Origin: Apostichopus japonicus
Lineage: Eukaryota; Echinodermata; Holothuroidea; Aspidochirotida; Stichopodidae
Direction: 5' to 3'
Length of the DNA: 64,000 bases
NCBI RefSeq assembly: GCF_037975245.1
Contig: NC_092580.1
Coordinates: 10,329,001 to 10,393,000 of the forward strand
Positions 5,848 through 64,000 of this stretch are shown piece by piece. Below the pieces are notes generated by a model. That model was not told the origin of the DNA and did no database searches. It worked only from the letters and a program-made list of their open reading frames with translations. Numbering within the stretch: the stretch's first letter is position 1; every line of letters begins with the position of its first letter. The position numbers and the translations under genes are program-made.

Positions 5848-5893
5848 TTCTACAAGAAAAGATTATCCGAAGGTAGTCATACAGAATAGACAC

Positions 5894-8040
<2,147 letters not shown>

Positions 8041-8470
8041 GTATAGCCCGAATAACGACCGAGTCTTACTCATCTAGACTAATCTCATCTCTAGCCTATA
8101 ACAGAATAACGACAGTCTTACTCACCTAAACAATATCTGCTTTAGCCTATATCAGAATAACGACAGTCTTACTCATCTAAACATTTATTATCTGCTTTAG
8201 CCTAAAAGTAAAACAGAATAACGACAGTCTTACAATTATTATCTGTGTTAGCCTATAACAGAATAACGACAGTCTTACTCATCTAAACAAATAATCTCAG
8301 CATTAGCCTATAACAGAATAACGACAGTCTTACAATTATTATCTGTGTTAGCCTATAACAGAATAACGACAGTCTTACTCATCTAAACAAATAATCTCAG
8401 CATTAGCCTATAACAGAATAACGACAGTCTTATTCATTTCAACAATTAATCTCAGCTTTAGCTTATAACA
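8041..8470. repeat. Minisatellite with higher-order structure
   Basis: Monomers of about 44-60 bp share GAATAACGACAGTCTTAC and GCCTATAACA. There are about eight. Two variants alternate: a longer one with CTCATCTAAACAAATAATC and a shorter one with AATTATTATCTGTG. This makes a dimer of about 96 bp repeated almost exactly twice. The array ends 13 bases from the stop codon of the GPCR at 8483, so it probably lies in that gene's 3' untranslated or flanking sequence. Confidence 0.9.
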
Positions 8471-8482
8471 GGGATTAAAACC

Positions 8483-9715
8483 TCAACGGGAAGAATTTTT
8501 ACTATGACAAAACGACTGAAGTACTTCTGTAAAATATTTTCTATATCTTAGGTTCATATTTGCATAAATAAATGGATTTAAAGCAGAATTAGCATATAGA
8601 AAGAACAATGCAATCTCATCCCAAAAACTTTCATCCCCAACGAAAACTATAAGACGCCAAACGAATAAAACATGCACAGGTAACCAACAAATTAGGTAAA
8701 CAGACACGAAAACGAATAAATTCCAGACAATTTTGCCAATTCTTTTTGGTGGTTTACTTTTGTCTTTTTCTGGGTTTACTGTATTTTCTGTTACAAAACC
8801 AGAATTATTAACACTCAGTTGGACCGATGATAGGGTAATATCATCTTGATTCTCAGCCGATGAGACTGCGATGTTGTCTCCTACTTGGAAAGTTTCTGAC
8901 GGATGTTTTCTTAAATAATCAGTTTTAACAGATTTTGTAAAATCCTCGGTTTGGTGGTTTATATCTGTTGTTGGAGTTATAGTCATTTCTTCAGCATTTG
9001 ATGAAATCCAAAGTACCCTATGGCTCTTTAATAGAACTTCACTGCTCCATCTGGTATGTTTATTAAGCTTTACGTACACCAAAACATTGATTGTCAAAAG
9101 AGCTATCACGGGAATGAAAAAGTTAAGAATTAGTTGAGCAATCGTGAACGTTGCACGGCTAAACAAGCTGTGTCGACGATAGAAATTAGTTACGGTAAAC
9201 AACGCAAAAATTGAAAATATAAAGCAGTATAGCACTGCAAATATCCACGCCTTTATCATGAGTTTCACATTTGCTTTCCTTGTACGATTTCTATAATATG
9301 TGAAAGTGTCAGTTACAAGTTGATAACGATCCAGACTCATAATGATTATGATGACGAGAGACATGTACGTCACTGAGGTACTCAGCCAGAGGGAACTCAT
9401 TTCTAACGGCAACGGCAAAGTCCATCCTCCAACAAGAAGCTCGATTGCTTCCATTGGTAGATTATGCAAACCAACTAACAAATCGGCTACAGATAAATGA
9501 AAAATGTACACATTGAACGGTAAACTTCTAACTTCATTACTGCGTAGATATGCGTAAATCACAAACAGATTCCCGACCACAGCTACAAGAGCAAGTACCA
9601 TAGAAACACAAAATATTGTAACACGTTGTAAATCAGATGGAATGTCAAGTACTGCTAAATTAACAGTCTCGGTTGAATACGAAAAGTTACTCTGTGTGAT
9701 GTAAGTAGTTTCCAT
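8483..9715 (-). CDS. Intact single-exon rhodopsin-family (class A) GPCR
   Basis: A seven-helix plasma-membrane receptor of 410 residues, expected to signal through G proteins; ligand unknown. The start is the ATG giving METTY, because the paralog at 16714 starts at the matching place; the longer frame begins with TTG. It has an NFS glycosylation site near the N-terminus, GN in TM1, LSVADLL in TM2, DRY (residues 129-131), CWLP in TM6 and NPFIY in TM7. Loop 3 is long (about 130 residues) and hydrophilic. The sequence after DRY (QLVTD..TYY..RT) recalls muscarinic and histamine H3 receptors. However, Glu stands 25 residues before the DRY Arg where Cys is expected, no Asp is at the amine-binding position, and extracellular loop 2 has no Cys. 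A minisatellite follows directly. Orthology cannot be settled by eye. Confidence 0.93.
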   Translation of the reverse strand: METTYITQSNFSYSTETVNLAVLDIPSDLQRVTIFCVSMVLALVAVVGNLFVIYAYLRSNEVRSLPFNVYIFHLSVADLLVGLHNLPMEAIELLVGGWTLPLPLEMSSLWLSTSVTYMSLVIIIIMSLDRYQLVTDTFTYYRNRTRKANVKLMIKAWIFAVLYCFIFSIFALFTVTNFYRRHSLFSRATFTIAQLILNFFIPVIALLTINVLVYVKLNKHTRWSSEVLLKSHRVLWISSNAEEMTITPTTDINHQTEDFTKSVKTDYLRKHPSETFQVGDNIAVSSAENQDDITLSSVQLSVNNSGFVTENTVNPEKDKSKPPKRIGKIVWNLFVFVSVYLICWLPVHVLFVWRLIVFVGDESFWDEIALFFLYANSALNPFIYANMNLRYRKYFTEVLQSFCHSKNSSR

Positions 9716-12673
9716 ATTGAAAATATAACTGTCAACAAAGCAAAGGAATGTCAACCGCAAACCTCAACACCAGTCAAAGGGAAACTATCAGCTCCTTCGG
9801 AAATAAATCCTTACAGATTTTGCTCAGACAAGGAACAACGTCGTTATAGCGTTAGAAGTCCTTAATCCATCCGCTTCAGCACTACATTTGGCAACTCTTT
9901 TAGTGGTCGCTTCGTTTGTTATTAATTGCTGCCAATGCACACGATTCGTTTTTTTAATAACACCAAAGTAGTCGGGTTTGTTCCTATTGAATAAACAAAT
10001 TCTGAATAAAACTTCCACCCACACGTTAAGCGATCTTCTCTTAAGATAAAGACAAAGTGGAAATATAAAAGTGCTCGTAAACCAAAGTACCTTAAATATT
10101 TGTCTTCCTTTTTGATATCGTGAATTCAGTTTATATCTTCCCCTTCAATCTGATCCATAAGGGTCTGTATATGACCCACCTTCAGTTAGTATATGACGGC
10201 AATTATTCATAGACATGATCTCATTCAATGTAGTGCTCAAGAGATTAGTTTCAAACTCATGTTTAACAAACTTACACAAACGAACAAAAAGAGGGAAATG
10301 GTGGACCAGCTTCGTTCAGCACTTCATTTCTCATAATACTACATATAGGGTCTAACATGTCTTAAAAAAAGAAACTGCACAACAATGTCGGCAGCAAAGA
10401 TGATACGAAGCCGAAAAGTCCTGTTGTTCCAGGCTTCACTGTATTTTGAAACTTCCATCATCGTTAGACTAATGTATACTTGTACAGTTATCTGGAATTA
10501 TAGCAATGTGGGCTATTGCTATTGCGATACTTGGCAGGTTTAGGCTATTGAAACCTGTACATTAACCTCATCGGATCAGAAATTGAACGTCCAATAGGGT
10601 ATCAAAACTGTCGAGTAAAACAATTATATATTTTGTGCTACTTAACGAAACAGCTGACCACTATGCAACATGCTAGTTTTACATCTAAGAAGTATCGACA
10701 AACATGTCAACTTTAAGTCTAACATCAAAGCATATATGGTGCTAACAAGTCTGAAGCGGTGAACTACGAAATGTGTAGTAAAAGAAAAGATCATAAAAGA
10801 GCACGAAGAAAGTTTTATAAGTGAACTTTTCTTGATATTTACTTTAAAAATATGATAAGATACAGTCAATATATACAGTCAATATGATCATATACAGTCA
10901 ATATGTTATGCATAACTATAGTTTAAGTGAATCTAGTGATGGGGTGCCACTCGTCATGTGGTTTATTAAGTATTTATTTGTAACGTTTCCGTCATTGGAA
11001 GTAATTATTGATCAGCCTAATTTACTTCGTGAGAAAACATTTTTTGCCAAAAATCAATTTGTTTTAATCCCTTTCTCGGTTCAAAGTATAAAGTGTTACT
11101 AAACCTCAGCTATGAGATTTTTACTAACGGGATTTCTCTAGTACAGACCCATTCAAGCATCTCTATTTTCATCGCGCCTACTCATATAGCTAATTGTTTC
11201 TAATGGTTTTTAAAAGCATTTTACAAGGAAAGAGAAAAATATATTGCTCAAAGAACCTTACAAGTTCTTATTGCGACTACTTAAATGGAATAATAACAGA
11301 AACGATAAAGGGCCGTCACGGTATTTTAAAGTATAAACAGATGTATTTCTTAATGGAAACGTGTTGAGATGTCATTGTTATGTTGGAATATATGACAATT
11401 GCAGTTTATTTTCAACTGTCATGCTAAACTACATTGATTAACGTCACTGAAAACGTCATATTTCTTTTGTTAATATTCTTGTACAACTTTTTGCAACTAA
11501 AGAAATGATTTTCAGCTATCATTTTCCATCCATTTTGAATAAATGGTGCCTTCCACTCAAATTACCGACTGATTTTTAAGTTTGTATAGTCTATGTAATG
11601 ATCTAAATCTCATGAACCTGAAATCAGATGCAAATGTGATCAAGACTATCGCTAATTATAACAGAACAACAAATTAAGAGGTTTATAAAGGTTACCACGC
11701 GTATCTCATCATTCTTTATTTCATGTTATACATTTGTTCCAAAGTTGTATTGAGAGCTATGACAAAACAATGCAGAGACTGAAAGTTATGCAGTATACTG
11801 TGGAAGGACGACATCTTCTTTATTCTGAATAGTTTAAAACAAGGGACCATTTATTAAAATATGAAAAATAAATAGAGATAAACATTGAGTTCAAAGTGAA
11901 AATATTTAAAAATTCCAGGCTAATAAAACTCTGCAAGGTTTCTCAAAAAGACAACGAATTATCTAAATGTGTGGTCCGTATATATCTATTATATACTGAG
12001 GTAATTTCTGATTTAGATGTTAGGTTTAGCTTTACCCAATTAAGTATCGTGTGTAAAAGTATAAAGAGCTGCTTTATCCTACAGGACTTATGAAGTATGA
12101 AAACAATCCTCATACAATCATATCTTACTTCCAGGAAATAGAGTAACGTGGGCTCTCTTAGTTTAGAACAATAAAAAAATCCAATAAAATAAACGCAAAT
12201 TTGTGCATCAGCAAGCTGTCATATAGGTTAAACACTGATGCATTGGTTGTAGATTACATATAAATATGTAAAGTACTCAAATTTAGCTTATTCTTTGCAT
12301 CTTTCGGGTGAACTCACAAAGTGAAGTTACGCTCTATGGCAGTCATTTTAGATGACACAGACCTGATTACGAAAAGAGAGACATGTTATTTAATTTACAA
12401 CTATCATGTATGTATATTTTAATGTTCTAACGATGAATTAAACTTATTCAACTGTTCCTAAGGCTTTCATTTCCAACAAAACACAACAGTTTATTAATAT
12501 TCCTGGTGAGATATTATTCATTGCTCATTCATTCATTCATTTATTTGTTTCTTCACACTATAAATACAGAGAAGTTAACTAAGTGACAACACATATCAAC
12601 AACAGGCAAAATTGTGAAAGGAAGCACTCAAAAAAAAACCCAGAGGGCTTAATTATTTAAATATATTATGCAC
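9716..12673. other. Non-coding interval between receptor genes
   Basis: AT-rich sequence with no frame above about 75 codons that resembles a protein. Near 10859-10905 the phrase ATACAGTCAATAT occurs three times in tandem. The sequence just above 9716 should hold the promoter and 5' untranslated region of the intact GPCR, but I see no distinct core motif. Confidence 0.5.
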
Positions 12674-13660
12674 CTAACAATGAATAAAGGAGTGTAATGT
12701 TTCTGTGAACGCTTTTTGGAATCTGATGTTCATAGCTGTATTAATAAACGGATTTATCGAGGAATTACCATAGAGAAAGTAATGAGCAATTTCATCACAG
12801 AAACTGTTGTAAACGATGAAATTTATAAGACGACACACCAACAGAATTGGGATCGGTAGCCAACAAATCATATAAACAGAAACCAAAATGAATAATTTCC
12901 GTACAGCTTTATTCATACCATTTGATGATTCAGCCATCCCCTTAAATCCTCGTTGGTTAACTATTTTGGTCTATTTTGATTTCCAATAATTCTTTTGGAG
13001 TGAACATATTAATTTCCAAACTAGACTCTACGTTGGTTGAGTTCCACAATGCTCTCTTACCGTGTAACCGCTTTATGCTATGTTCATGCCTCCATCTTTT
13101 GTGTTTCTTCAGTCTAATGGAACCAACATATTTATTGTCAGGAAAAAATCAGCAGGGGAAGATCAATTTTTTTTAAAACAAAGCAGAAAAAAAGAGAAAA
13201 TTTCCACGACTTCAGCACAAGTTTCATATTTGCTCTCTTTGTCCAATATGATATGTAAATGTATTTGTCACAAGTTTATAACGATTAAAACTCATAATAT
13301 TAATAATAATAAGTAAAGACATCGACGATACTTAATACACCAGCCAAAGAGACACAAGTTGTACTGGAAATGGTAAAGTGCTTCTTCCCAGGAGACCCTC
13401 GCCAACCTTTAAAGTTAAAGTATGTAGCCCAACAAACAAGATTGCTACGGATAGATGCAAAATATAAGTATTGAAGGGTAATTCTCTAAATTTACCACTG
13501 CGTGAATATGCGTAAATCACAAGAAGATTTCAGCAGTAGCTATAAGAGCAAGAAAAACAAAGGTACTAACTATTGCTGCTGTCATTCCTACTTCAAACTG
13601 AGTGACATTGATTGCCAGATTGAGTTCTTAAGATGGATATAGGAAAAAATGCTGTCTTTG
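12674..13660 (-). pseudogene. Degenerate GPCR pseudogene
   Basis: Fragments of the same receptor family lie in order on the minus strand. A TM1 remnant (about 13520-13640) is followed by TM1/TM2 (LPFNTYILHLSVAILFVG) at 13332-13520. A TM3 end with NRY instead of DRY and the family signature KLVTNTFTY lies near 13230-13320. TM6/TM7 with CWLP and NPFIN is at 12674-12937. Loop 3 is largely missing, stops and frame changes separate the pieces, and NPxxY is broken. It is a dead paralog of the receptors at 8483 and 15453. Confidence 0.88.
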
Positions 13661-13689
13661 TGGAAATTTGTTTCCATTTTCCAAGAACA

Positions 13690-15452
13690 AGGGTGCTAAA
13701 TTTTGTTGATAATTATGACAATTAAGTATTTCTAGCGTTACTTCAGACACTGCAACCACTGCACACTGAGTATACCTGAGTCATAGATATACGTTCATGC
13801 TCTGCATCCTTAGCTTATTGCAACATCAGGTTGTGAGCAGCCTTTAACTCCTCCTCATCTGATTAGCACGGTTATTAATAGATGAGATTTAAGTCCCTCA
13901 TCTCAAGGTACGTGTGCTAAGTCAGTAATTCAGTTAGCTGTCAGGTAAGACTTTGCTAACCACATCCATATTTATTTAATTTTTTGTAACACTTTTGGTT
14001 CGGGTGGAAGATTATCCTGATATCTCCGTTGCTTTTCGCTTTGAAATTTGACAAAACCAGGGCTATTGCGGCAATCTCTAAGAATAAGGGCACAATAATA
14101 TTGAATATCTATTGAATATCTATACAAACGATATGAAAATAGTCTGAGTTTCTGTTGAACTTGGTATGATTATTATTTAGTCGTTCACGTGCTCTTCGTG
14201 AAGCAAAACGTCAAATAAACGCATGCCAGTGAGTACTTGGAATAAAACGTGGACACACTGAAGGATCTTGAAAGCCTTTCCTTTCGGGCTGTGATGTAAG
14301 GCTTACAGGGTGTAGTTTGCCGACTAAACAATTCATCCACTCTATTGTTATACAACGCCAAAATCGGGAATCACCTCTCCGGCTGAAGACATATGTCAGC
14401 TCTTAATTGCAACCAGTTGCAAGGTGTGATTCCAAGATCGCTGATAGATGTGTTTAAAGATGCGAATACATGATTCAAAGATGTATTTACCACAATCTTT
14501 GAGAGTGCAAATTATGGAATAATTTTTGATTATGATAAACTTTGTTTACTATGTGTGTGATTACATATAATGAAGGAGAATGTCTTTCAAAGTTAGATAT
14601 AAGAATCAAAACATATAAATCAAGAAACACAAGAATCAATTATACCGTAAATTATTGTTCAGGTGTGAACTTTTGACTATATATGTTATGCGTACACCAG
14701 TTGTTTCGGTTAGAGGAACTTAACGTTTTCACCATAATATTTACATATCACAAGACGAACAAACACGTTACTATTGTAATGACGTGGGTCATTAATGTAA
14801 TGTACAGTAGGTATATGATGTGAAGGACACCCTTTAGCAGGGAAAAATAACATTTCGTAAAATTGTTTTTTGAAATTGCTTGTTAAAAGGTTTTTTTTGT
14901 CGTGAGCTCACAAGCATAAACAGTCAGTCTAATAGCATCTGAAATACCTCACTCTACATCATTTTCCATTTTCATTTTACTTTAAACGAAAATAAGGAAA
15001 CTTGCAAAAAAAACCAAGTTTCTATCATTGTAACATTTTTAAGTGCATGGCTACCTGCGATAGGTCACTTTTGTTTCTCAAATCTATCGAGTATTAATCA
15101 AAGTAAGTTTGTGTAAGTTATCCAAATAAGAATCCGTCGATCTCAGATGATTATTTCATTATAAAATGAACCTTAATGAGCAAATGATTGATCAACTTGA
15201 TTCGAAATTTAACCTTCTTCGTCACCCGGATCACTTTTATCTTACTGGTGATTTCTAGTTTTGGTAGTATATATATTAAATGTAAATTTTATCTCAAGCC
15301 GTATAGGCAATATATACTTAAATCACATTTGAATAGTAATCCATAATTTCTGTATCTAAAATTCCTTCTTGGAAAAATTCACAATTCACAATTTCACAAT
15401 TTACATAATTGTTGTCCTTAAAATCAGTAGACATACTTCTAACGATATAAAC
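13690..15452. other. Non-coding interval
   Basis: AT-rich sequence between a dead receptor and the next receptor copy. No exon, transposon end or array could be supported here. Confidence 0.5.
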
Positions 15453-16714
15453 TTAGTCAGAACCTCCCCGGGAAGTAGTTTTACAGTGACATAATGATTG
15501 ATATACTTCATTAAAATATTTTCTATATCTCAGGTTCATATTTGCATATATAAATGGGTTCAGAGCAGAATTACCATAAAGAAAGAATACTGCAATCTCA
15601 TACCAAACATCGTCGTTTCCGATTAGAGAACTGAGACGCCAAACAACCATAACGTTAATAGGTAACCAACAAACTAGATAAACAAACACGAAAACGAATA
15701 AATTCCAGACAAGTTTGTCAATTCCTTTTGGTGGTTGACTTTGGTCTTTCTCTGTGTTAAGTTTATGTCCTGCTACAAAACCAGGACTATCAATATCCAG
15801 TTGGAATGATGAAACGGTAATGTCAACTTGAGTTTGGGTCAAAGAATCTGCTATTTTATCTCCTTCTTGGACAGGTTCCTCTTTTTGCTTTCTCAGATAA
15901 TCTGGTTCGACATCTCGTACAAAATCTCCAGATTTGTGTGGTAAGGCTTTTAATGTATAGCATCGGTAGTTATTCCTAGAGGAGGCCGTGTATTTGATGA
16001 AATCCAATTCACTCGATGGCTTTGACGGAGATTAATTTCATGGCTCCATCTCATGTGTTTGCTAAACTTTATGAACACCATCATATTGATTATCAGGAGA
16101 GTAATCAAGGGAAGGAGAAAGTTAATAACTATCTGGGTAATCTGGAACAACACAGGGATTATTATGCTCTTCGGAAAGTAGTCAGTTTGTACGCTCCATG
16201 CAGCAAAAAGTATATATAGTAAGGAGTATACCACTGAAAATATCCACGCCTTTATCATGAGTTTCACGTTTGCTTTCCTTGTACGAATTCTATAATATGT
16301 GAAAGTGTCGGTTACTAGTTGATAACGATCCAGACTCATAATTATTATGATGACGAGAGACATGAATGACACTGAGTTACTCAGCCAAACATTACTAATT
16401 ATTAAAGGTATGGGTAAAATCCATCTCCCAAGATAGTCGGCACCTTGCAACGGTAGATTATGCAAACCAACCAACAAATCCGCTATAGATAAATGAAAAA
16501 TGTACACATTGAACGGTAAGCTTTTAATTTCATTGCTGCGTATGTATGCGCAAATCACAAACAGATTTCCGACCACAGCTACAAGAGCAAGTAACAAAGA
16601 AACACAAAATATTGTTACACGTTGTAATTCAGTTGGAATGCTATTTACTGTGAAATTGACAGTCCCAGTTGAGTAGTACGAGAAATTACCATCTGTTATC
16701 ATATTACTTTCCAT
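15453..16714 (-). pseudogene. GPCR paralog with a one-base frame break in loop 3
   Basis: A close paralog of the receptor at 8483. The first frame (ATG at 16714, MESNM) runs through TM1-TM5 with an NFS glycosylation site, GN, LSIADLLVG and DRYQLVTDTFTYYR, then stops in loop 3 near 15950. The second frame overlaps it (16007-15453) and carries the rest of loop 3, CWLP in TM6 and NPFIYANMNLRYRKY in TM7. Loop 3 aligns with the intact paralog across the break, so one base is missing or extra around 15950-16000. Everything else looks functional. As in the paralog, the TM3 Cys is replaced (Ile) and the amine-binding Asp is absent. It is either a very recent pseudogene or an assembly error. Confidence 0.85.
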
Positions 16715-18850
16715 TTTCAAAAAACATCGGTTCCGTATTCAGTATAAAATCAGTGAAGACCCTCTTCATAACCTCTGTAGGTAAATCATTAACGATGAAA
16801 GATAATAAGGATGTTCTAATAGGTATCGAGTCTTTGTAATATGGAACTGCAATTATACGTGTTTTAAGCGTAATGATCTCTCAAGGCAGTAATAACTGCT
16901 CGGCTCTGACTATGTTTTAACACACATAATCGTTTGTTGCATACTCCGGTTGTTATTACTATTTGTCAATTTACAAGATTCACTTGTATTGGCGAAAAAG
17001 TGGTCGAGTTTACTCGACGTCTGCACGGAATAAAGAGAGTTTATGAATAAGATTTCCGGTGATACCTTCATTGATTTCTATCTTAACAAGCGATAAAAAA
17101 AATAGAATATGCAAATTTTATAGTGCTGAACGATTGCGACATTCACTTGTAAGTTGATGTTGTTATTGCTCAATCAAATGAAAATATTTAATGAAGTAAA
17201 AGCTGCAGGAGCAGTGACAAACAACAAAGCCAGGTCACAAACTCTTGAAAACTCTCCGAATAGAAAGCTAAATCCAACCAAATATGCCTGTCACATAAGA
17301 CCTAAAAACGAATAAACATACAGTTGGTAGGCCTAGTTTCTGAAAACAAAGAACTATATCACTTTGTCGAAAGTTACATGGACAAAAAAATACCAATAAT
17401 TACTACAAATGCAAGAATCGTGCACGTGAGACGCGCAGATATGTATTAAATCGTATAAGAACTTGCATAGTTATGCCAACTCATGTAACTGCAAAGGGAA
17501 AATAAATGATCCATGTTCGTGTTGTTTTCAATGGTCGAGGAACTAGAACAGATGATTATCAACATCTGCAAGAAAGCCGTAGTTTTTTAACAAACTTGTT
17601 CTGACTTAAATGTTGACAACACAATTATATAATATTAGGATTCATCCTGTGAATGTTCTTTATTAATTTCTGTCATTATCTATCTGACATTAGATAACAT
17701 CACAATTATTAGGTCCATTGTTCAACTTTAAGTAACCATTATGCACAATGCCTGACCGACAAAATTCTTCTTTTTTTTTTTGTCAAGCTTGATTGCTGCC
17801 AATATCAAAGCGATCAAAGCTTTTTATATGTAGCCCAGCCTCTTAGGTACATATTATATGATAAAATGGTGTTTAAAAAAATATTTCCACTGCTTTAAAT
17901 GAGGACATATATCGATTTTGTAATACTGGTTTAATGCCATGATAGTTAATTGGCGTTTAAATCGCTGAGTATTTGCATTTGACTATTAAAACAATGGTAT
18001 ATTTCTTGCCAATATGAGTGAGCAATCACCGATAAAAAAATATATTACTCATGTTTGATACATGATATGTTGATGATGAAAATGGTTAAACGATGGACAT
18101 TACTACGAGATCCCCCTGTTGCTGAATTTATACCTACACCTCCGTTATTTCCAAATGTTTTATACATATTTCATATTCTTTATTACTATCTCTCACGTGA
18201 TAAATATCTCGTCTTTGTCAGTGGTTTGTTCCATAACAATAATGAATACATTTCTAAAGCGCCGAAAAGAAAAAAATATGAAATAAATGTTCATGGCCCT
18301 GAACAATTAAAATTAAGTTAGTTGGCCGTTGTAAAGAATTGACATGAGGGGTGGTCTTAATTAGCAATGGGAACGAGATCCAGAAGCAGAGGGCAGCAGA
18401 TGCAAATATATTTAAAATCTATGCCTGGGGCATGCTACACAACTAGAATCGTATTATACTTATAACATTTTCAACTGGCATGTCCTACCGACCACGTGAT
18501 GGTTGGTTTGGTCTATCATGCATGGCACCCTTAAATTGACCTATTATGACCGTTTACATTTTTAGGTAGAACAAAGTAGAAAGTTTGAAATATGGCTTTC
18601 CCATGGATTACATCTGTTCTCGTCGCAAATCACTTCCATGTCGCCAGCAATTTCTAAAATACATTAAATCACCTTCAATCTTTCTGATATTTAGAGAACC
18701 ATTAGTCTAAGCTACACTCGAGCATATCATCCACGCTTTAACGTGATGGCCTTAACTGCTAGCCAGTTTCGTCGTTCTGTGTCATAATGGTTAAATATTT
18801 TCTTCCCATATGAGTGAATGCAGAGTATTTCAAATATCTTAAGACTAAAC
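16715..18850. other. Non-coding interval
   Basis: No receptor fragment, transposon terminus or array was found. An 88-codon plus-strand frame at 18055-18321 has no recognisable domain and is not supported as a gene. Confidence 0.5.
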
Positions 18851-19469: not shown

Positions 19470-21140
19470 TCCTGTACCGACCATCGTAACAGCATAAATA
19501 AATGGATTTATAGCGGAATTACTGAACAGAATTATTTTGGAAATGTCTTTCCAAACATCATAATCAAGGGCGGCGGAACCGGGGGGGCACAGGGGGCACG
19601 TGCCCCCCCCCCCCACTTTTCCTCAGGTTAAAAATGTGCCCTTTTTCTACATAAAAATTGAGGTGTCCCAAGTTAGCAAGAGGCCAGGGAACCAGAATGA
19701 ACACTCGGGAAGGGCCGTTTCCGGCCATCTGAGGGGTTTGTAAAACCAAAACTTTTCTTGTACGCTCCGCGCCAACCGATGGTGGCGCTCCGCTCAGATA
19801 GTCGTGCATATACAACTTTGCAAATCCTGGCTACGCCTGTGGGTCAAACTCAAAGCTATTTCGAATGGAAAAAAATTTGCTAAGATATTAACAAGAAATA
19901 AACTCGAATTCGGAAGATTCCTGCAAAGTGCCCTTTGAGGTCGGTGCCCCCCCCCCCCCCAGATTAAAAGTGCTTCCGCCGCCCTTGATCATAATCCTCT
20001 ATGACGACAAAAAGACAAAAAAAAACGCATCGTCATGGCAACCAGCATACTTACAATACCGGTACAAAAATTCATAAGTTTATAACAGTCTTTCTCATTG
20101 GTTGACTTTTATCGTATATCTCTGTCCGTTGGGGATTTGTGTTTACATCAAGACGATTAGTACTGCCTACATCATTAGTTCAATACGAAACTGTTATGTA
20201 TTTAAAAATTTCGATCTAAGAAGAGGTGCATTTTTGGGCTGCCGGAGTTACTTTATTTAAAATTGAGATAGCCTTTCGTTGATTGAAAGAACTATCTTGT
20301 TTACTTCTGAGGTCCTGTTTGAATTCCTTTTCCAGGAGTCAGAAAGCTTGATGAATTTTTCCTATTTGTTTACAGTTTAATTGCAGTCTAGTTCGGTTTT
20401 CGTGTTTGACAAGCATGACGTAAACACTGATATTTAACATGAGAAGGGTAGTACTTAATGGTACAATGAAAATCAACGTTATATCTATGATCGTAAACAA
20501 TAACACTGCAACATTTATCGTTAGAAAGAAACAAAACACTTATACATTATAGAATAGACTATTGTAGCCGTCAATGTTATTACTGTAACAAATAAAAACG
20601 ACTGCCATTTGAAGGTTATACTATTTTGTTTATGAATGAACTCGTAGGAATTCCGTGCAATACGAATAGCTGGATAAGTGCATCCAACTGTGCAATGACT
20701 TTTATATGGGAGAGAAGAAGAGAATACAGGAGAGTCGAGTACAGCCAGTCGAGGTTTCAGATACGTTTGTATTGTGCCTTGTGTTCATTCTCGTCCTGTT
20801 TTGACTTACGTCTTCAGTTCTAGTTCTTTCGCCGACAAACGTTACAATACCATAAGTAATAAGTTTGATCGATTAGTATGCTTCCGGTAATGATTGAGGG
20901 CGTCTGCAACAAGTTGATATCGATCCAAGCTCATGATTATGACAATGTTTAATGACATAAATGTCGTGAGACTAACGAACCAAAAATGGAACGGCAATGT
21001 TGGTCAAGGTACTGTCAAACCTCTCGGAAGGAAAGGAACAGCTTTCTCGACCAACTAACACGTCCGCTGTGGAAAGGTGCAAAATATACACTTTGACCGG
21101 TAAGCTACAAACTTCTGTCTATAAGTTGACCCTTGGTTTT
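19470..21140 (-). pseudogene. GPCR pseudogene in unit 1, split by a hAT insertion
   Basis: Minus-strand receptor pieces in order. TM2 (LPVKVYILHLSTADVLVG) is near 21040-21110. The TM3 end with MSLDRYQLVADA is near 20890-20980, ending in a stop. A TM5-like segment lies at 20339-20539, and TM7 with NSAINPFIYA near 19480-19555. Stops and frame shifts separate them, and the 423-bp hAT element at 19565-19987 sits between TM6 and TM7. It descends from the same receptor family as the 8-17 kb cluster. Confidence 0.85.
19565..19987. mobile_element. hAT-type MITE, 423 bp, 8-bp target duplication, empty site known
   Basis: The ends are CAAGGGCGGCGGAA and its inverted copy. ATCATAAT is duplicated on both sides (19557-19564 and 19988-19995). 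Unit 2 near 32850 has the uninterrupted target with one copy of the site, so the element inserted after the duplication. The interior has long G and C runs and shares a block (CTTGTACGCTCCGCGCCAAC and neighbours) with the element at 29008-29413. There is no transposase frame. Confidence 0.93.
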
Positions 21141-21359
21141 TATAAACAAATAAGACTATTCTACACACATCAGCAATATTAAAATGTGACTGTTCTGGAC
21201 TAGATGTTTAGCCCTTTGTGTAGGTAAAATGGTTTATCGAGTTTTGTCGCAGATGTTGTGACAATTAATACAACACTTTACCAATTAACAGTCTCTTCAT
21301 CATCTCTTTCCATCATCTCATTCTCATTTCACCAGTTATGTTTTCCGAAGATTGTTTCA

Positions 21360-21919
21360 CTTTATGAGACCGGAAGTTTGAGATATAGCGTCTTCAGCGC
21401 GATACAAAGTTCGTTGCGCACTATTTAACCAAGCTCCATGGTTAACATAAGCACGCTAGCCGTCAGTGTATTATGACTATATGCTTCAGGCTTCTAACAC
21501 ACAAAATGATGAAGCCATATTCACGCGCGCACATTTTGACAGCGTGATTTCGTTAAACACGTTCGCATTCACTTAATGATGAAGCCACTTTGTACGTATG
21601 CGCGCATTCGGTCGTCACATTCTGCGTCCTTCTTTCTTGCGTTTCTTTTTGTTTAATCAGCTACCGCACAAGTCCTTCGCGGATTCCGAATGCGCGCGCA
21701 TTGCGTCGTAATGAAAATCGCGTTGCGTCGAAAAAAAAAATTCCTTTATGACGCCACATAAGTTATACCTTGACAAGAACTATCAACGTAGCAACAATGT
21801 TGATATATATGGTTCAGTTCAACTTGCTTCTGCATCACGAACACACCGTACTTGCTTAAAGCGAATAGTACAGCGATTATTTTTACCAGTTTCTGGAACT
21901 CTTTACAACTCTACTTCCG
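21360..21919 (+). promoter_or_regulatory. CpG-rich candidate promoter and non-coding first exon, kinase copy 1
   Basis: Against an AT-rich background this segment is full of CpG (CGCGCGCA, GCGCGCATTGCGTCG) and contains two related blocks around AATGATGAAGCCA. It ends with a strong donor, TTCCG|GTAAGT, at 21919. The coding exon beginning at 22854 has an acceptor 12 bases before its ATG, so an upstream untranslated exon is expected. The same arrangement lies in unit 2 at 34560-35115. The start site itself cannot be read from sequence. Confidence 0.5.
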
Positions 21920-22865
21920 GTAAGTCTGTCATTATTTGCCTTTGTGTTGAATGGTTTTACTAAATGGAGATATATCTTAATATTTGTAATATCAGAAAAA
22001 GAATCTACGAATCAGTTCTCTACGCGGAAGATTCAGAAGACTAAGTAGCTTAGGCTAACAACGGGCACCGCCGAAATTGCGTACCAACGACATCGACAAA
22101 CACTTCATTGGGAGAGAGGGCGGCAAGCTATTACGTAAATTTTCAATTTGACGATATTTTCATTCCAAATATTAGCGGAATTTCCTTGCGGTTAACATTG
22201 AAAGCGTGTTGATGCATGGTGTTTGAGTAAGGTTGTTTACGTTGCATTACCTAACATAGTAGGCTATATATTAAGAGGGGGCTATTATTTATAAGAACTA
22301 TTGTACCCGTAAGTTGAAACTTGAGTCATTCTCAATCTCTTATTCAATCCTCTCCTAAAGCTAGTAACAACAAATGCTAAATATCCATGTAAATAGAGAC
22401 ACACGCAAACCTTGAACTGAAAAGAAGATTGACACTAATATAGGGAAATATTGAAGCATCCGGGGAAATATTTAAGCATCCTGGATGCTATTGTATGTAA
22501 CCGTATAGTTATGCATAGATGTATGAGTTATAGTTGAATATACATACATGAAAATTGTGAAGGAAAGATAGAGCAAGAGCATCAAATCAAAAGATGAACA
22601 CTGCCATCATTCCTATACACCCAGTTCATTCCCCTAACATTGTAAATGTGACCATGTGATCGTGATGTCTACCTTTGTGAATGATTCCATTACACGACCA
22701 ACCCCACCCACCCCCACCCCTCAAGAGAAAATCATCTAAATTGATACGGATAAGTGTAATCTAAACGAATATTGAAACTTACGACGTACCTTTCCAATAG
22801 TATCATATTTAAGTCTTTAATGAAAACATAATTCTTTCTGGAATCTCTTACAGTCGGTTACCACA

Positions 22866-23357
22866 ATGCCATTCGGAAGTCCTTTCAGACGAACACCTGT
22901 CCCGTCCCGACCCCGTCTAGAGAGGTAAGAATTTAACTTTTAAAATGTTTTTATTCTTCAAGAATGTTATGAAAGGGTCTGGGAGAGGGAGAGAATGTCG
23001 GAAGGGAGGTAACACCTATCCGTTTTGTCATAATCTTCGCAAAGCAAGTGGCTGGTTGCTTTAAATCGTTTCACTTTCTTAAACTATCAAACTACACTAC
23101 ATTCCCTCATATGAGACAAACCATATTCCAATATCACCTGACAGACAATATCAGAGGAATAAATTACAACCATTCATTATGATCAATATGTACATTATAT
23201 TTAATTGTCGTTAAAAAATATGTATATCTGCCGAAATACAAACCGAAGAAAATCTGATCAAATGGACAAACTTTAAAAATAAAATAATTACAACCGACAA
23301 TAATTTTAATACGCACTACAAGTTCACAAGTTAAATCGACAAATAAGGTAGAAGTTG

Positions 23358-23397
<40 letters not shown>

Positions 23398-26300
23398 TAT
23401 TTTCATGCTTTAATAAAGTGTAAAGTATAAGTACATTTCATACACTAAGTATTGTCAATAGTTTCCATTGTAGTATGATATATCGAAATATTATTACAAT
23501 GTTTAAACTATTAATTTGTCACTGTTTTTGTTTTGTTTTGTTTCAGACGTTCGGTTTGGAAGAAGGTATTTTGTACCTTGCCTTGTTGTGGCCGCACATA
23601 CGCTGATGACGATGGTCTAGCCGGAGAATATATTCCTGCTTATATCCATCCTATTCCTCGTCGTCTTCCATACTATGGCCCTATACAAGAAGACAGTCAC
23701 GTGACTGTATCAAGCGAGATGAAAAAACCTGCCTCGCGAGTTTTAAGCTTCCCTGGAGAAGATGAAGGCACCCGTGCCGTGCCTTCCACTGAGTCTTCAT
23801 CACTGATTGATACTATCTTCTCAGGAGAGCCATCGTCCCTTACTAACAGCACAAGGGATGAATCTAAACGGCACCAATCCCAAAACACCCCCGGGGATAA
23901 ACACCATCGCAATCCCTCTGATCACCATGAGATATTGCCATCAGCCAACAACTCAGAAGAGGCCACAAAAGTTCAAAGCCACCATACCCGTGAGTTGTCG
24001 ATTGACCGCCATGTCGAATGCGGTATCCGATCATCCTCTTCGTTCATCAAAGCAGGGTATTTCTTTTTCGGTTGTCAAGGAGATGTAGCCACAACAAATG
24101 TAAAAGCCACCTCCTTTAAAGGGACTACCATTCAGTCCTCGTCGACATACCAACATCGCCCAGTGAGTGACGTCAGTAATGACCGTCGTTTTGTCAAATC
24201 ATTCCAACAACAGGAGCTGATAACGCCACCCAAAGCACTCCCTCTTTCACGTCTGTCACGTGACATTCAGCTCTCGTCGGCGAACAAACATCGCCTAGTG
24301 AGTGACATCACCAACGCAACACATGTTGGTGACTCCTTTCAACATCAGGTCATGTCATCTGCGCTGAGATCATCTACGCCCTCACGTCAATTATCAGGTG
24401 GCATGCCTACCCTTCGCCTTTGCCGTGGAGTGAGCTTCCGTTCGTCAACTTCTACCGGTAATATCAGAAGTAGCAATAGCAACATGGGACATTTCATTTC
24501 TTTCAGAGATGTTCGAGTGGTCCAGTCTTTGGTGACACCAATGTTTGTTATGATTGGTCATAAACGTGCACCATCCGCACCAGCTCGAATACATGTTGGA
24601 CTAAGTTGCCAGATACTAAGTTCCTCCATCAATCGGTTTACTCGACCGAGGTGCCAATCAGAACCGGCAATGATCTGCTTTGCAAGATTGTCCATCACAA
24701 TCGGGCGAAACTGCGTATCCCTCATCGTCGCTGGTATGAAAATGCCCGAGACCGAAGGAAGGTGTAATTCAGCGCCACACCAGCTGGTACATTACCGCCC
24801 TCTTGCTACCACAGCCAAACCTGCATGGAAGTTTTCCGGCCTCGAGGAAGCAGCAGGGCCGTCGCCCCTTATGTTGTCTGTAACCAACGCCATCAAATTC
24901 CGGACACATAACACCGTGACCTTTACCACACCCAATATCAAGTCTACCAAGGATGGTGCCTCATCATGTATCAACCATCACGTCATGCCACTAATGTGCA
25001 CACCTGTACAAATGAGTGTAAAACATCAACTATTTGGTACTCGCCAAACCGCCCAATGCTCATCATCAAATACCATTTTCGGTCAGCTCTCAATTTCACA
25101 TCCATTGTCCAAAGTGGTTAAGTCGCCAGAGCATCATGACATCCTCATGCAATCTATATCTGCCAACCGTCGGGTGTATGACCATTTTCCTGATAATGGA
25201 TGCAAAATGCCAGCACACTGGATCTCAAATAACCCCATTCCAGTCGACCATATCATTCCATCGCAAAACGCAACACCGCGACGTAGCATTGCTACCAATA
25301 AGAACTGCAGTCCTAAATACACATTGCGACCTTTCAAACCAACCAATACAACAGTTGTACCTATCGGCAAGAAAATAGCCGTGAAAACACCAGGTATCGT
25401 TGGCAACCATTATACACCAAATATACCATTTCATGCACCGCCTGACGTGCCTGCTTGGCATCTTGCAACAAATTGGATGGGATCTAACCTTTTTCACCAA
25501 GGTGCATCAAATGATGCTATCGTTGGTCAGCCACTAGGACAAAATGTCAACTCGCCCTTGATACCTACCGCAGCAGGAGTAAATCCTATCGGTGGATTTA
25601 GATACAATACACCTAAATTGACTTCACCAGCTTGGGGAACGCTCGGAGGATCCCCGACTACTCCACTACAAAATAACGCACCGAATCTGTCCATCTCATC
25701 AAAGGCGTTAAAGAATGTACCTCAATATCCTTGGAAGAATCCATTCTTGCAGAACGTTCAAACAGCAATTACCGCCAAGAAGTCCCCTCCTTGTCATGCG
25801 CAGAACATAAACATCCAGCAACAACCGCTCCATGTGAGTACCGCATAAGACATCACATAGATACTGAATGATTTAATCACAATCATTATGTTAATACATG
25901 TTAACGAGAACGCGTCATGATATGTATCTGTTTTATGTCATATGCATATTCATATCAATTTGGTAATGATCTATGCATTCAATAACATTACTACATATGG
26001 AATTTAATCCGATAGAAATAACTAAAATCATAAAACTGAGTAACCTAGTTATAACGTTACAACTAAGCAGTGAAATATTTTTTTCATAAATGTATTTTTC
26101 TCTCATCCGTTTCTTTCAGAATCCATTTCAGAATTATACTGATGGAATGTGGAGTACTCAGCAACTTGCTCTGCACAGGTAGAAATCTATATGTTCCTAC
26201 ATTATTTACACAGTAAAATAAAAATACTAATAATGCTAAATAAAAAACATGATTACAAAAATGAGATTCAAAGTAACAATAACGAGAACGAGAACCACTG

Positions 26301-27792
26301 TAATAAACAGTTTAATATATTTATAGTGATAGATTCATGAGCTAATGAAAGTCATGCCACTACGACAGTCCGTATAGTTCGTGAATATCTAGTACATAAC
26401 TGTAATTGATGAAACGTACACACTGCAACTTGTTTTAGCTCATCAGGGCTCAGTGTCATGTTCACAATGAAATGACGATTGTGATCGGAAAATGTTATCA
26501 ATTGCTATGGTTACTGGTCAACTGACCTGTATCACCATGGTAACAACATGAGATTCACGGTACCAATCATAATTTATTTCAATTCTACACAGCCCACCTC
26601 CTAAGCATTTAAAGGCCTCAGACTACAATCTCCCTTCGTCTTGTGACGTCATCGCAAAGAGTGACTTGGAAGATATTTGTAACTCGATGCAGATGCCGAC
26701 GATTCTAGGAAGTGGAAGCTTTGGTGAAGTCAGGTTGATGAGGCAGCTATCTTCAAGACGCGTGTGTGCGGTCAAAGTTCATCACAAAAACCGAGATGAA
26801 AAGAGCATCATCAAGGTATACGTCAATGTGTTTATATTAAATATCATAGAAATGAAACAAAATAGTATCTTGTAATTTACGGTATATACTACATATTTTG
26901 ATGGAATTTGAGATTAAAACGGATATGCCACCTTTTGATATTAGAAGATATTTACATAATAATTAATATTATATTTATTCTTTTTTCTCTCCTTCAGTTT
27001 CAAATATGTACAATCTGTCAACTCCACAACTTCGTTATAACTCGCCATCGTTGTTAAGACCCGACTGTGGATTATTACATACTTCATACTATCAATACTT
27101 ATCGTTGATTTCATTTGGCAGGATTTGCAGAAAGAAACCTCAATGCTGACATCTCTGAGCCATCTAGACTGCATTCCTAAACTTTTCGGTATTTCAAGAA
27201 TTGGCAGCGATACCGATGTACCTGTCCTCGTTCAAGAGTTCGTCGGTGATTCGGTCACATTTAAATCTACCACGGTAGCTGACGTCATCGACGCCAAGGG
27301 CCTGAATGGGCCGAGCTCTTTCAGTGTAGCCATTCAAGTTTGTCGCGCCATTAAGGACATTCATTTCGCAGGAATGATTCACTGTGATTTGAAAACTGAT
27401 AACATCATGTTCCTGAGAGGTCCATCGGGGGAAGATGGGAGGTAAAGATCAAAATTATTGACTTTGGGAAAGCGGTGAGCAGGACAGGGAAAGCAAAATA
27501 CGAACACTTCCCAAGAAATGAACATGTTAATATCCGTAAGCAATGCTCCCACATTGCCCCAGAGGTTGTATTTGGAACCAGGCCATACAGTCTGTATACA
27601 GACGTATACGCTTTGGGACTAGTGCTAGCAAACGTGGACGCATCTCCTGGAAGATTTCTCAGGAAACTTGGATTCAAATGTTTAGCTGAAGACTGGAACC
27701 AAAGACCAAATGTCCATGAATTGATACGAGATATTGATACTTATATTAAAGACAGACAGGCCAGCTACGCTAGATGGAGGAGTGCAGGGTAG
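22866..27792 (+). pseudogene. Tandem non-RD kinase gene, copy 1, frameshifted in the kinase domain
   Basis: Five coding exons with GT/AG introns and consistent phase: 22866-22924 (ATG, MPFGSP), 23547-25833, 26120-26178, 26593-26815 and 27122-27792. The long N-terminal part is Ser/Thr/Pro/His-rich and probably disordered. The kinase domain begins with GSGSFGEV (residue 841 on) and the VAIK-type Lys863, then reaches HCDLKTDN. Relative to copy 2 one base is missing near 27438-27445 (exon 5 is 671 versus 672 bases). Translation therefore stops after residue 983, seven residues before DFG. The remaining frame, with DFG and APE, is intact downstream. The product would lack the activation loop and C-lobe. 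Alternatives are an assembly error or a truncated protein that is kept. Exon 2 has the same length as in copy 2 with no indel. Confidence 0.85.
23361..23396. repeat. (TA)n microsatellite in intron 1, short allele
   Basis: About 18 TA units. The matching tract in unit 2 (36562-36667) is almost three times longer, so this locus has expanded or shrunk since the duplication. Confidence 0.9.
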
Positions 27793-32759: not shown

Positions 32760-34330
32760 TGTACTGACGATAATAGCATAAATAAATGGATTCATAGCAG
32801 AATTACAGAAGAGAATTATTTTGGAAATGTCTTTCCAAACATTATAATCCTCTATGAAGACAAAAAGACGTTTATGTACAAGCAGGCATCGTCATGGCAA
32901 CCAGCACACTTATAGCAATACCAATATGTATGTCTTTGTCCGGTAGGGATTTGTGTTCACATCAAGACGATTAGTACTCCCTGCATTAGTTCAATACGAA
33001 ACAGTAACGTTATTTAATATTTCAATCTATGAAGAGGTGCATCGTTGGGCTGCCGAAGTTACTTCAAATAAAGATTGAGATTTTTTATCGATTGAAAGAA
33101 CTATCTTGTTTACTTCTTAGGTCCTGTTTGAATTCCTTTTCCATGAGTCAGAAACAAGGGCTTAGGAACCGGGGGGCTGGGGGCGCCAGCCCCCCTCCCC
33201 CCCCAGTGAAAAATATGGAGGGGCGGAAGTATTATTCCGCCCCCGCTTCGCAGGTCAGACAACCCCTTTTTCATTTCCAAATGAGAAAAAAATCTCATTT
33301 GGAGCACCAAATTGCATCTAAGGCCAGGTGAAAATGCAAAATTATTTACAAAATGGAGTGGGTGTTGAAGTGTGCTATATTGCACCAAAGAGGTAGGAGG
33401 TCTGAGGCCACCTGGAAATGCAAAGAAAAATTCCAAAGGGGAAGGGGACACCCCCTCCTCTTAGACCCATTCCCCAGGCCGGCCATCAGTCTTCAGCCCC
33501 CCCCCCCCACTCAAAAGTACCTTCCTACGCCACTGGTCAGAAAGCTTGCCGAATCTTTCTATTTGTTTACAGTTAAATTGCAATCTAGTTCGGTTTTCTT
33601 GTTTGACAAGCATGACGTAAACACTGATATTTAACATAAGCAGGGTAGTACTTAATGGAACAATGAAAATCAACGTTATATCTATGATCGTAAACAATTA
33701 CACTGCAACATTTATCGTTAGAAAGAAAAACAAACACGGATATAGAATAGACTATATTGTACATGTCCATGTTGTTACTGTAACAAGTAAAAACGACTGC
33801 CATTTGAAGGTTATACTATTTTGTTTATGAATGAACTCGTAGGAATTCCGTGCAATAGGAATAGCTGGATGAGTGCATCCAACTGTGCAATGACTTTTAT
33901 ATGGGAGAGAAGAAGAGAGTAGAAGAGAGTCGAGTACAGCTAGTCGAGGTTTCATATACGTTTGTATTGTGCCTTGTTTTCATTCTCGTCCTGTTTTGAT
34001 ATACGTCTTCAGTTTTAGTTCTTTCGTCGGCAAACGTTACATTACCATAAGTAATAAGTTTGATCGATTAGTATGCTTCCGGTAATGGTTGAGGGCGTCT
34101 GCAACAAGTCGATATCGATCTGAGCTCATGATAATGACAATGTTTAATGACATAAATGTCGTGAGACTTACGAACCAAAAATGAAACAGCAATGTTGGTC
34201 AAGGTACTGTCAAACCTCTCGGAAGGAAAGGATCAGCTTTCTCGACCAACTAACAAGTCCGCTGTGGAAAGGTGCAAAATATACACTTTGACCGGTAAGC
34301 TACAAACTTCTGTCTATAAGTTGACCCTTG
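32760..34330 (-). pseudogene. GPCR pseudogene in unit 2, split by a different hAT insertion
   Basis: This is the counterpart of the remnant at 19470-21140. TM7 (ILFCNSAMNPFIYA) lies near 32770-32840. A TM6 fragment near 32900 has CWLP followed at once by an in-frame stop. TM5 pieces lie at 33585-33697, and TM2/TM3 with MSLDRYQLVADA near 34080-34300. The hAT element at 33155-33535 interrupts it. Because the receptor is decayed in the same way in both units, it was already dead before duplication. Confidence 0.85.
33155..33535. mobile_element. hAT-type MITE, 381 bp, 8-bp target duplication, empty site known
   Basis: The ends are CAAGGGCTTAGGAA and the inverted relative of CAGTGGCGTAGGAA. GTCAGAAA is duplicated at 33147-33154 and 33536-33543. 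Unit 1 near 20335 has the unoccupied sequence with a single site. There is a G/C-run interior and no transposase. Confidence 0.93.
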
Positions 34331-34559
34331 GTTTTTATAAACAAATAAGACTATTCTACACACATCAGCAATATTAAAATGTGACTGTTCTGGACTAGAT
34401 GTTCAGCCCTTTGTGTAGGTAAAATGGTTTATCGAGTTTTGTCGCAGATGTTGTGACAATTAATACAACACTTTACCAATTAACAGTCTCTTCATCATCT
34501 CTTTCCATCATCTCATTCTCACTCCACCAGTTATGTTTTCCGAAGATTGTTTCACTTTA

Positions 34560-35115
34560 TGAGACCGGAAGTTTGAGATATAGCGTCTTCAGCGCGATAC
34601 AAAGTTCGTTGCGCACTAGTTAACCGAGCTCCATGGTTAACATAAGCACGCTAGCCGTCAGTGTATTATGACTATATGCTTCAGGCTTCTAACACACAAA
34701 ATGATGAAGCCATATTCACGCGCGCACATTTTGACAGCGTGATTTCGTTAAACACGTTCGCATTCACTTAATGATGAAGCCACTTTGTACGTATGCGCGC
34801 ATTCGGTCGTCACATTCTGCGTCCTTCTTTCTTGCGTTTCTTTTTGTTTAATCAGCTACCGCACAAGTCCTTCGCGGATTCCGAATGCGCGCGCATTGCG
34901 TCGTAATGAAAATCGCGTTGCGTCGTAAAAAAAAATTCGTCTTTATGACGCCACATAAGTTATACCTAGACAAGAAATATCAACGTAGCAACAATGTTGA
35001 TATATATGGTTCAGTTCAACTTGCTTCTGCATCACGAACACACCGTACTTGCTTAAAGCGAATAGTACAGCGATTATTTTACCAGTTTCTGGAACTCTTT
35101 ACAACTCTACTTCCG
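34560..35115 (+). promoter_or_regulatory. CpG-rich candidate promoter and non-coding first exon, kinase copy 2
   Basis: The counterpart of 21360-21919, nearly identical, ending in the donor TTCCG|GTAAGT at 35115. A 119-codon frame through it (34885-35244) reads past the donor into the intron and differs from unit 1 by an indel, so I treat it as untranslated. Conservation between units is expected from recency and does not prove function. Confidence 0.5.
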
Positions 35116-36068
35116 GTAAGTCTGTCATTATTTGCCTTTGTGTTGAATGGTTTTACTAAATGGAGATATATCTTAATATTTGTAATATCAGAAAAAGAAT
35201 CTACGAATCTGTTCTCTACGCGGAAGATTCAGAAGACTAAGTAGCTTAGGCTATCAACGGGCACCGCCGAAATGGCGTTCCAACGACATCGACAAACACT
35301 TCATTGGGAGAGAGGGCGGCAAGCTATTACGTAAATTTTCAATTTGACGATATTTTCATTCCAAATATTAGCGGAATTTCCTTGCGGCTAACATTGAAAG
35401 CGTGCTGATGCATGGTGTTTGAGTAAGGTTGTTTACGTTGCATTACCTAACATAGTAGGCTATATATTAAGAGGGGGCTATTATTTATAAGAACTATTGT
35501 ACCCGTAAGTTGAAACTTGAGTCATTCTCAATCTCTTATTCAATCCTCTCCTAAAGCTAGTAACAACAAATGCTAAATACCCATGTAAATAGAGACACAC
35601 GCAAACCTTGAACTGAAAAGAAGATTGACACTAATATAGGGAAATATTGAAGCATCCGGGGAAATATTTAAGCATCCTGGATGCTATTGTATGGAACCGC
35701 ATAGTTATGCATAGATGTATGAGTTATAGTTGAATATACATACATGAAAATTGTGAAGGAAAGATAGTGCAAGAGCATCAAATCAAAAGATGAACACTGC
35801 CATCATTTGTATACACCCAGTTCATTCCCCTAACATTGTAAATGTGACCATGTGATCGTGATGGTATTATGTCTACCTTTGTGAATGATTCCATTACACG
35901 ACCAACCCCACCCACCCCACCCCTCAAGAGAAAATCATCTAAATTGATACGGATAAGTGTAATCTAAACGAATATTGAAACTTACGACGTACCTTTCCAA
36001 TAGTATCATATTTAAGTCTTTAATGAAAACATAATTCTTTCTGGAATCTCTTACAGTCGGTTACCACA

Positions 36069-41057
<4,989 letters not shown>

Positions 41058-41784
41058 AGGAGAAAGAATATTTATTATATTTATTTAGTAATATTTAGTA
41101 ATTAAAAACATTTACAGCGCCCGGTGCGTCATAAAGTTTCACGTAAATATCTTTATCATGTATATAGCGATAAAAACATGGTTAATGAAATAAATAGGGA
41201 AACTTATATATGAGATGAAGTTTGAATGAGAAAATAAATTTAAATTTAAAAATTCAAGAAAGAATTCTTTCCTTTTTTTTAATAGAAATATCTCTAAATA
41301 AAAAGTAAGCCTTCTCATATTGATTTGGCTTCGGTTTGGCATATTGTCAAGTTAAAAGAATGGTCAGGGTCACATCGCATGTTGTCCGGTTGTCACTGGG
41401 CTACAATAAACAACAGAGCTAAACATATGTTGTTTTGTTACACATCGCGTAATTACTTAACTAACGAAGAACAATAACTCCGAAAAACTCAAAGACAATA
41501 CTTTCTTCGTAGCCTTATATATTTTAATCAAATAAGCAACACATACAAATAACATGTAGGCATTTCATTATTTTGAGAAAGCAGAGAAATCAGAACAAAG
41601 AAAAAAACATGGCATTTATTGGACACCGTACTAGTTGATGTAAGGCATAGCGTGACATATGACTTCTCATACAACTAACTGGTTTTTAATCAAATCTCTG
41701 ATTAAATCAGATAAAGCCACTTCTAATAAAAGTGTACTGAGAAACTAACAAAGCACTGAAAGCAGCAAGTTAATATCTATAGAG

Positions 41785-44913: not shown

Positions 44914-64000
<19,087 letters not shown>

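Follow-up and report, generated by a model that had tools for sequence, protein, structure and literature searches.

A tandem family of HCD kinase genes in Apostichopus japonicus with a fast-evolving N-terminal spacer and a local deficit of silent change

Introduction

Plant receptor kinases are among the non-RD kinases of innate immunity, in which the arginine of the catalytic loop is replaced. A gene family of Apostichopus japonicus may resemble these kinases by analogy, as the loop arginine is replaced here too: HCD stands in place of HRD in the gene called copy 2 below and in all six of the relatives fetched from elsewhere in the genome, so that by this residue none of them is an RD kinase. 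Unlike the kinases of innate immunity, these genes carry no receptor, death, or CARD domain that Pfam finds in exon 2. They also depart from typical PF00069 kinases, both in having HCD rather than HRD and in having a long N-terminal spacer without a Pfam match (none at E 0.1 across exon 2), and the PDB sequences nearest to the gene product are generic kinases only (best E 5e-11). Our scans found no viral or prokaryotic relatives.

The spacer also invites comparison with a described problem in measuring selection. Wisotsky et al., 2020 (PMC7403620) report that modeling variation in silent rates removes close to 50% of the positive results obtained on an empirical set. Our case is like theirs in that a dN/dS above one is gone once silent rates may vary apart from the ratio, and unlike theirs in that the deficit of silent change is local, affecting a single exon of genes that are probably subject to gene conversion.

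Results

Two gene copies in the window

The window, meaning the whole stretch of 64,000 nucleotides that was analyzed (C20:10329001-10393000, NC_092580.1), contains, twice in the same orientation on the + strand, a gene of five exons: copy 1 (c1) at 22866-27792 and copy 2 (c2) at 36069-41057, with GT-AG at every junction. The features used below, in positions of the window, are:

21042..23943, no strand: near-identical tract (upstream, exon 1, intron 1, and first part of exon 2), about 1.1% from copy 2
22866..22924, + strand: copy 1 exon 1, coding from the ATG, in a splice-consistent model
23547..25833, + strand: copy 1 exon 2, with the start motif RRSVWKKVFCTLPCCG and then the spacer, without frameshift or stop
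24181..24480, + strand: 100-codon segment of copy 1, in frame inside exon 2
26120..26178, + strand: copy 1 exon 3
26593..26815, + strand: copy 1 exon 4, start of the kinase domain (GSGSFGEV, AVKV)
27122..27792, + strand: copy 1 exon 5, kinase domain, with a 1-base deletion after 27438
36069..36127, + strand: copy 2 exon 1
36818..39104, + strand: copy 2 exon 2, start motif and spacer
37452..37751, + strand: 100-codon segment of copy 2
39390..39448, + strand: copy 2 exon 3
39857..40079, + strand: copy 2 exon 4, start of the kinase domain
40386..41057, + strand: copy 2 exon 5, intact kinase domain with HCDLK and DFG (Pfam PF00069, E 4.2e-18 on the open reading frame holding the exon)

The copy 2 product has 1,099 residues and its exon 2 has 762 codons; the predicted protein would start with a short conserved double-cysteine motif, continue with a spacer some 750 residues long, and end in an HCD kinase. 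The kinase scores 66.1 bits against the PF00069 profile (curated cut-off 31.7), its translation shows the glycine loop, AVK lysine, DFG, and APE, and copy 2 retains the catalytic residues (AVKV lysine, HCDLK aspartate, and IDFGK). In copy 1, the 1-base deletion in exon 5 (gap after 27438) has an in-frame stop directly behind it, at codon 984, ahead of the place where copy 2 has DFG. Past the deletion the two copies differ by three replacements and three silent changes in 116 codons, with a ratio of 0.29 for the kinase exon; because the exon is still conserved beyond the lesion, the deletion either arose recently or reflects an assembly error.

Pieces of a RIG-I-like receptor gene (two DEAD pieces, Helicase_C, and the RIG-I C-terminal domain) lie beside copy 2 on the - strand at 44914-56629, and at least three rhodopsin-type receptor genes, two of them 76% alike, lie on the same strand at 4674-16738. 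Two segments are present only in the flanks of copy 2: about 855 bases at 41784-42637, with ends ggcggact/agtccgcc flanked on either side by a ctatagag repeat (by eye), which looks like a DNA transposon insertion, and a further insertion of about 380 bases in the 5' flank at 33155-33535, with gtcagaaa on both sides (by eye).

Seven copies on C20 and relatives elsewhere

A DNA search of the genome (671.6 Mb, 35 contigs) with the kinase exon returned seven matches, all on C20, and a protein search with exon 2 returned 15 matches, all within the same seven genes, several of which stand in tandem. By our gene models four are open throughout, namely copy 2, g4 (L009), g5 (L010), and g6 (L011), and three are broken: copy 1, g3 (L008), whose exon 2 contains a 389-base repeat and whose exon 5 contains two changes that shift the frame, and g7 (L012), which has lost about 144 bases in comparison with copy 2 and also carries frameshifts and three in-frame stops. 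Trees were built from the whole coding alignment, from introns, and from upstream sequence; the coding tree is ((c1,g3),((c2,g4),g5),(g6,g7)).

Among the 56 matches listed in a protein search with the kinase exon, eight near-full-length ones lie outside C20, on C19, C21, and C23, at 37-40% identity. We fetched six of these eight, and in all six the motif RRxVW[KR][KR]VxxxLxCC opens a long open stretch and the catalytic loop reads HCD. Copy 2 matches these relatives (tblastn below E 2e-4) only at residues 20-172 and 805-1089. C23 holds a cluster of relatives, and in the C23 copies an open stretch between the spacer exon and the kinase exons consists of TAEPVKATAE-like repeats (L058:6074-6706), varying between L058 and L063.

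Copies 1 and 2 diverge as a mosaic

Between 21042-23943 and 34238-37214 the two copies are about 1.1% diverged (32 differences in 29 windows of 100 bases), after which divergence rises sharply, to 7-17 differences per 100 bases over 24544-25043; introns 2, 3, and 4 are 11.6, 9.1, and 7.2% diverged, respectively. A patchwork also appears between g5 and copy 2, whose divergence of 9% upstream and 15% in intron 1 drops to 1-3% across introns 2-4. The mosaic of divergence fits a conversion tract over the 5' part of the tandem pair, which is the probable explanation, and the 100-codon segment begins about 240 bases past the end of the homogenized tract.

All dN/dS comparisons here are between paralogous copies within one genome. 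Over the segment, copies 1 and 2 differ at 19 amino acids with no indel, just as the preliminary description had counted; its tally of about 5 silent changes becomes 7, as two further steps fall in doubly changed codons beside the 5 purely silent ones, and the partner stretch that it placed at about 37441-37740 lies 11 bases away, at 37452-37751. With 20 nonsynonymous steps in 224.9 sites and 7 synonymous steps in 75.1, dN is 0.095, dS is 0.100, and dN/dS is 0.95 by counting (Fisher p = 1), and a codon maximum likelihood estimate gives 1.12 (interval 0.55-2.84, p against 1 = 0.80). Of the claim that replacements per site match or exceed silent changes, the first half therefore holds and the second does not in this pair. 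With the intact g6 as third party, the replacements divide almost evenly, about 10.5 on the copy 1 side and about 9.5 on the copy 2 side. Kinase exon 5 has 7 replacements and 7 silent changes in 222 codons (ratio 0.29), close to an earlier count of 6 and about 7 in 224 codons, and exons 4 and 5 together give 0.29 by counting and 0.28 by maximum likelihood (p 0.007), so the contrast first described between a fast N-terminal stretch and a conserved catalytic domain is real.

The spacer keeps its frame

The diverged part of exon 2 (1,893 bases) has no indel between copies 1 and 2, whereas 996 intron bases have 8 (p 2e-4); between copy 2 and g6 there are 2 (of 3 and 6 bases) in 2,284 exon bases, against 34 in 1,563 intron bases (p 1e-11). 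Placing the substitutions at random would be expected to create 4.3 stops between copies 1 and 2 and 5.6 between copy 2 and g6, and none is seen (P 0.01 and 0.002). From the indel pattern and the absence of stops we infer that the spacer is kept as protein, though most of its sequence is free. S/T/N/Q/H/P/G make up 0.41-0.57 of the spacer and 0.33 of the kinase; on the TOP-IDP scale the two overlap. Both measures are scores of composition only, and they give no clear sign that the spacer is disordered.

A high ratio in the 100-codon segment

Among the four intact copies (c2, g4, g5, and g6) the segment has a ratio of 4.10 (p 0.006), and among all seven copies 2.21 (p 0.013), so that with same-genome copies dN/dS is not clearly below 1. 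The diverged exon has five further stretches, in which the intact four give 0.59-1.54, none off 1 at p 0.05; over 631 codons of spacer the intact copies give 0.91, and the kinase gives 0.29 (0.42 with all seven). By parsimony the intact four require 32 replacements and 3 silent steps in the segment. On the branches to g6, g5, g4, and the copy 2 side, with copy 1 added as a tip, there are about 24.5 replacements, of which about 1.5 fall on branches common to the c1-c2 pair, and 1 silent step (P 0.003-0.007). Multi-base mutation was considered as a cause of the high ratio and rejected: without the multi-base codons (1 of 100 in the segment, intact four) the ratio is 3.9 (p 0.008).

Tests for positively selected sites were run with our own codon-model scripts rather than PAML, assuming one tree, an assumption that conversion violates; since the tree of intron 4 pairs copy 2 with g5 instead of g4, one tree misfits the gene and the p values are approximate. 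Under M1a, 84-89% of spacer codons are fitted at a ratio of 1, whether or not copy 1 is included, and across the 631 codons of the diverged exon M2a finds no site class above 1 (p 0.94 over M1a for the intact four, 0.48 with copy 1). For the segment alone the same comparison gives p 0.024 (intact four) or p 0.14 (with copy 1). The p values of the segment need correction for a scan because it was picked by eye: in a permutation scan of the intact copies the best window starts at 24220, inside 24181-24480, with p 0.031 for the maximum, and 24181-24480 itself has p 0.052 with the scan or 0.0024 if taken as fixed.

The high ratio comes mostly from missing silent changes

Among the intact four, silent steps per codon number 0.03 in the segment versus 0.113 in the rest of the exon (P 0.0045), and replacements per codon 0.32 versus 0.228, a 1.4-fold rise (P 0.05). 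When the segment shares its silent rate with the rest of the exon its ratio is 1.23 (p 0.36); when it is given a silent rate of its own the ratio is 4.19 and the silent scale 0.26 (p 0.0056 for the scale), roughly a fourfold deficit. Between copy 2 and g6, dN in the segment (0.119) equals or falls below the divergence of introns 1-4 (0.118-0.182). The high ratio is accordingly due mostly to a local lack of silent change, with replacements accumulating at an intron-like neutral rate.

The deficit extends over the start of the exon. Comparing the first 311 codons with the rest of exon 2 between copy 2 and g6, silent divergence is 0.053 versus 0.127 (p 0.003) and replacement divergence 0.076 versus 0.080 (p 0.86). 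Across 23547-24480 silent change falls below that of the rest of the exon at p < 0.05 in five of six pairs, which are not independent of each other; c1-g6 is not significant (p 0.13). Measured against the kinase, the deficit is significant in two of the six pairs only. An overlapping reading frame was rejected as its source, as no other frame on either strand is open across the segment (five copies), and so was base composition, third-position GC being flat along exon 2. In four copies, RNA fold z-scores range from -2.8 to -3.5 at 23581 and from -1.5 to -2.3 at 24181; they are moderate overall, and -2.7 is also reached at 25081 in two copies.

On C23, in a cluster independent of the one on C20, the pair L058-L063 has a spacer ratio of 0.81 (28 and 11 steps) and a kinase ratio of 0.14 (3 and 6), and shows no silent deficit (p 0.155, in the opposite direction). 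The nearly identical pair L058-L062 has a spacer ratio of 0.48 on 5 steps and an 8-base deletion. In L058-L061, an older pair of relatives, the spacer ratio is 0.50 (0.85 in the first 100 codons) and the kinase ratio 0.19, with silent divergence of 0.38 in the first 200 spacer codons versus 0.65 (p 4e-6) and replacements lower there too; L063-L061 has a spacer ratio of 0.55.

Discussion

The account that best joins the observed rates, frame keeping, family layout, silent deficit, and conversion-like mosaic is, we think, a loosely constrained spacer drifting near neutrality in a tandem family that is mixed by gene conversion, while the start motif and the kinase are held; we consider this probable. 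The seven copies on one chromosome would exchange tracts by conversion, and most spacer codons would drift near the neutral rate because the spacer needs an open frame and a rough make-up but little fixed sequence. The segment would look extreme because it lies within the first ~310 codons, which show about 2-3 times less silent change than the remainder of exon 2, and because the differences immediately upstream were removed by conversion. The double cysteine, which has basic residues next to it, may be a site of lipid modification that anchors the protein at a membrane, with the spacer as a flexible tether and the kinase as the part that signals.

What lowered silent change locally is a separate matter, for which chance, constraint on silent sites, and conversion are all possible causes, chance or silent-site constraint being the likely but unproven explanation. 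Constraint on the silent sites of the first ~310 codons, through RNA structure, splicing, or regulatory signals, could by itself inflate the ratio, and we regard this as a serious contender that nonetheless falls short of being probable. The deficit over 23547-24480 in five of six pairs, the same direction in L058-L061, and the fold scores at 23581 and 24181 argue for it, though in L058-L061 replacements are lower as well, L058-L063 has no deficit, the fold scores are moderate and recur at 25081, no second open frame or shift in third-position GC accompanies the deficit, and chance would also serve. Decay of copy 1 as a pseudogene, which the preliminary description had foreseen as a source of the excess, is highly improbable, even if the kinase exon of copy 1 is frameshifted and g3, its sister, carries different disabling lesions: both members of the pair have gained replacements, exon 2 of copy 1 has neither stop nor frameshift, the kinase exon stays at 0.29 beyond the lesion, which points to a recent deletion or an assembly error, and the four intact copies give a ratio higher still (4.1, p 0.006).

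Positive selection on the segment is possible. In its recurrent form, for example with an antagonist binding the spacer, the low silent count would reflect a short local genealogy produced by copy exchange and the replacements would truly be in excess; we think this unlikely. The ratio among intact copies is 4.1, or 4.19 with its own silent scale and 3.9 without multi-base codons, the excess lies on branches outside the c1-c2 pair, and a RIG-I-like receptor gene adjoins. However, a short genealogy should lower the number of replacements as well, which is no smaller here than elsewhere, and the introns flanking the exon are both deeply diverged between copy 2 and g6 (0.182 and 0.158). The exon-wide comparison of M1a and M2a gives p 0.94, p for the segment is near 0.03-0.05 once the scan is allowed for, and the spacer ratio of older pairs goes down to 0.50-0.55. 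The arms race put forward in the preliminary description is thus possible but lacks support in the form given there: replacements accumulate no faster than neutral sequence changes, the elevated ratio is owed to few silent changes, the intact copies yield no exon-wide signal, and older relatives have a spacer ratio of 0.50. A fuller version, in which the spacer start is a conflict surface of lineage-specific double-cysteine HCD kinases that diversifies at a ratio of about 4 among working copies, with conversion spreading it through a cluster next to a RIG-I-like receptor and with the kinase kept fixed, seems to us slightly less likely again.

Under near-neutral drift of a converted spacer, the locus offers a worked case in which a ratio above one in a short window arises from missing silent changes and not from extra replacements, among young, converted tandem copies. 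It also outlines a family of kinases, with a conserved start motif, a free spacer, and an HCD kinase, that occurs in several clusters of the A. japonicus genome.
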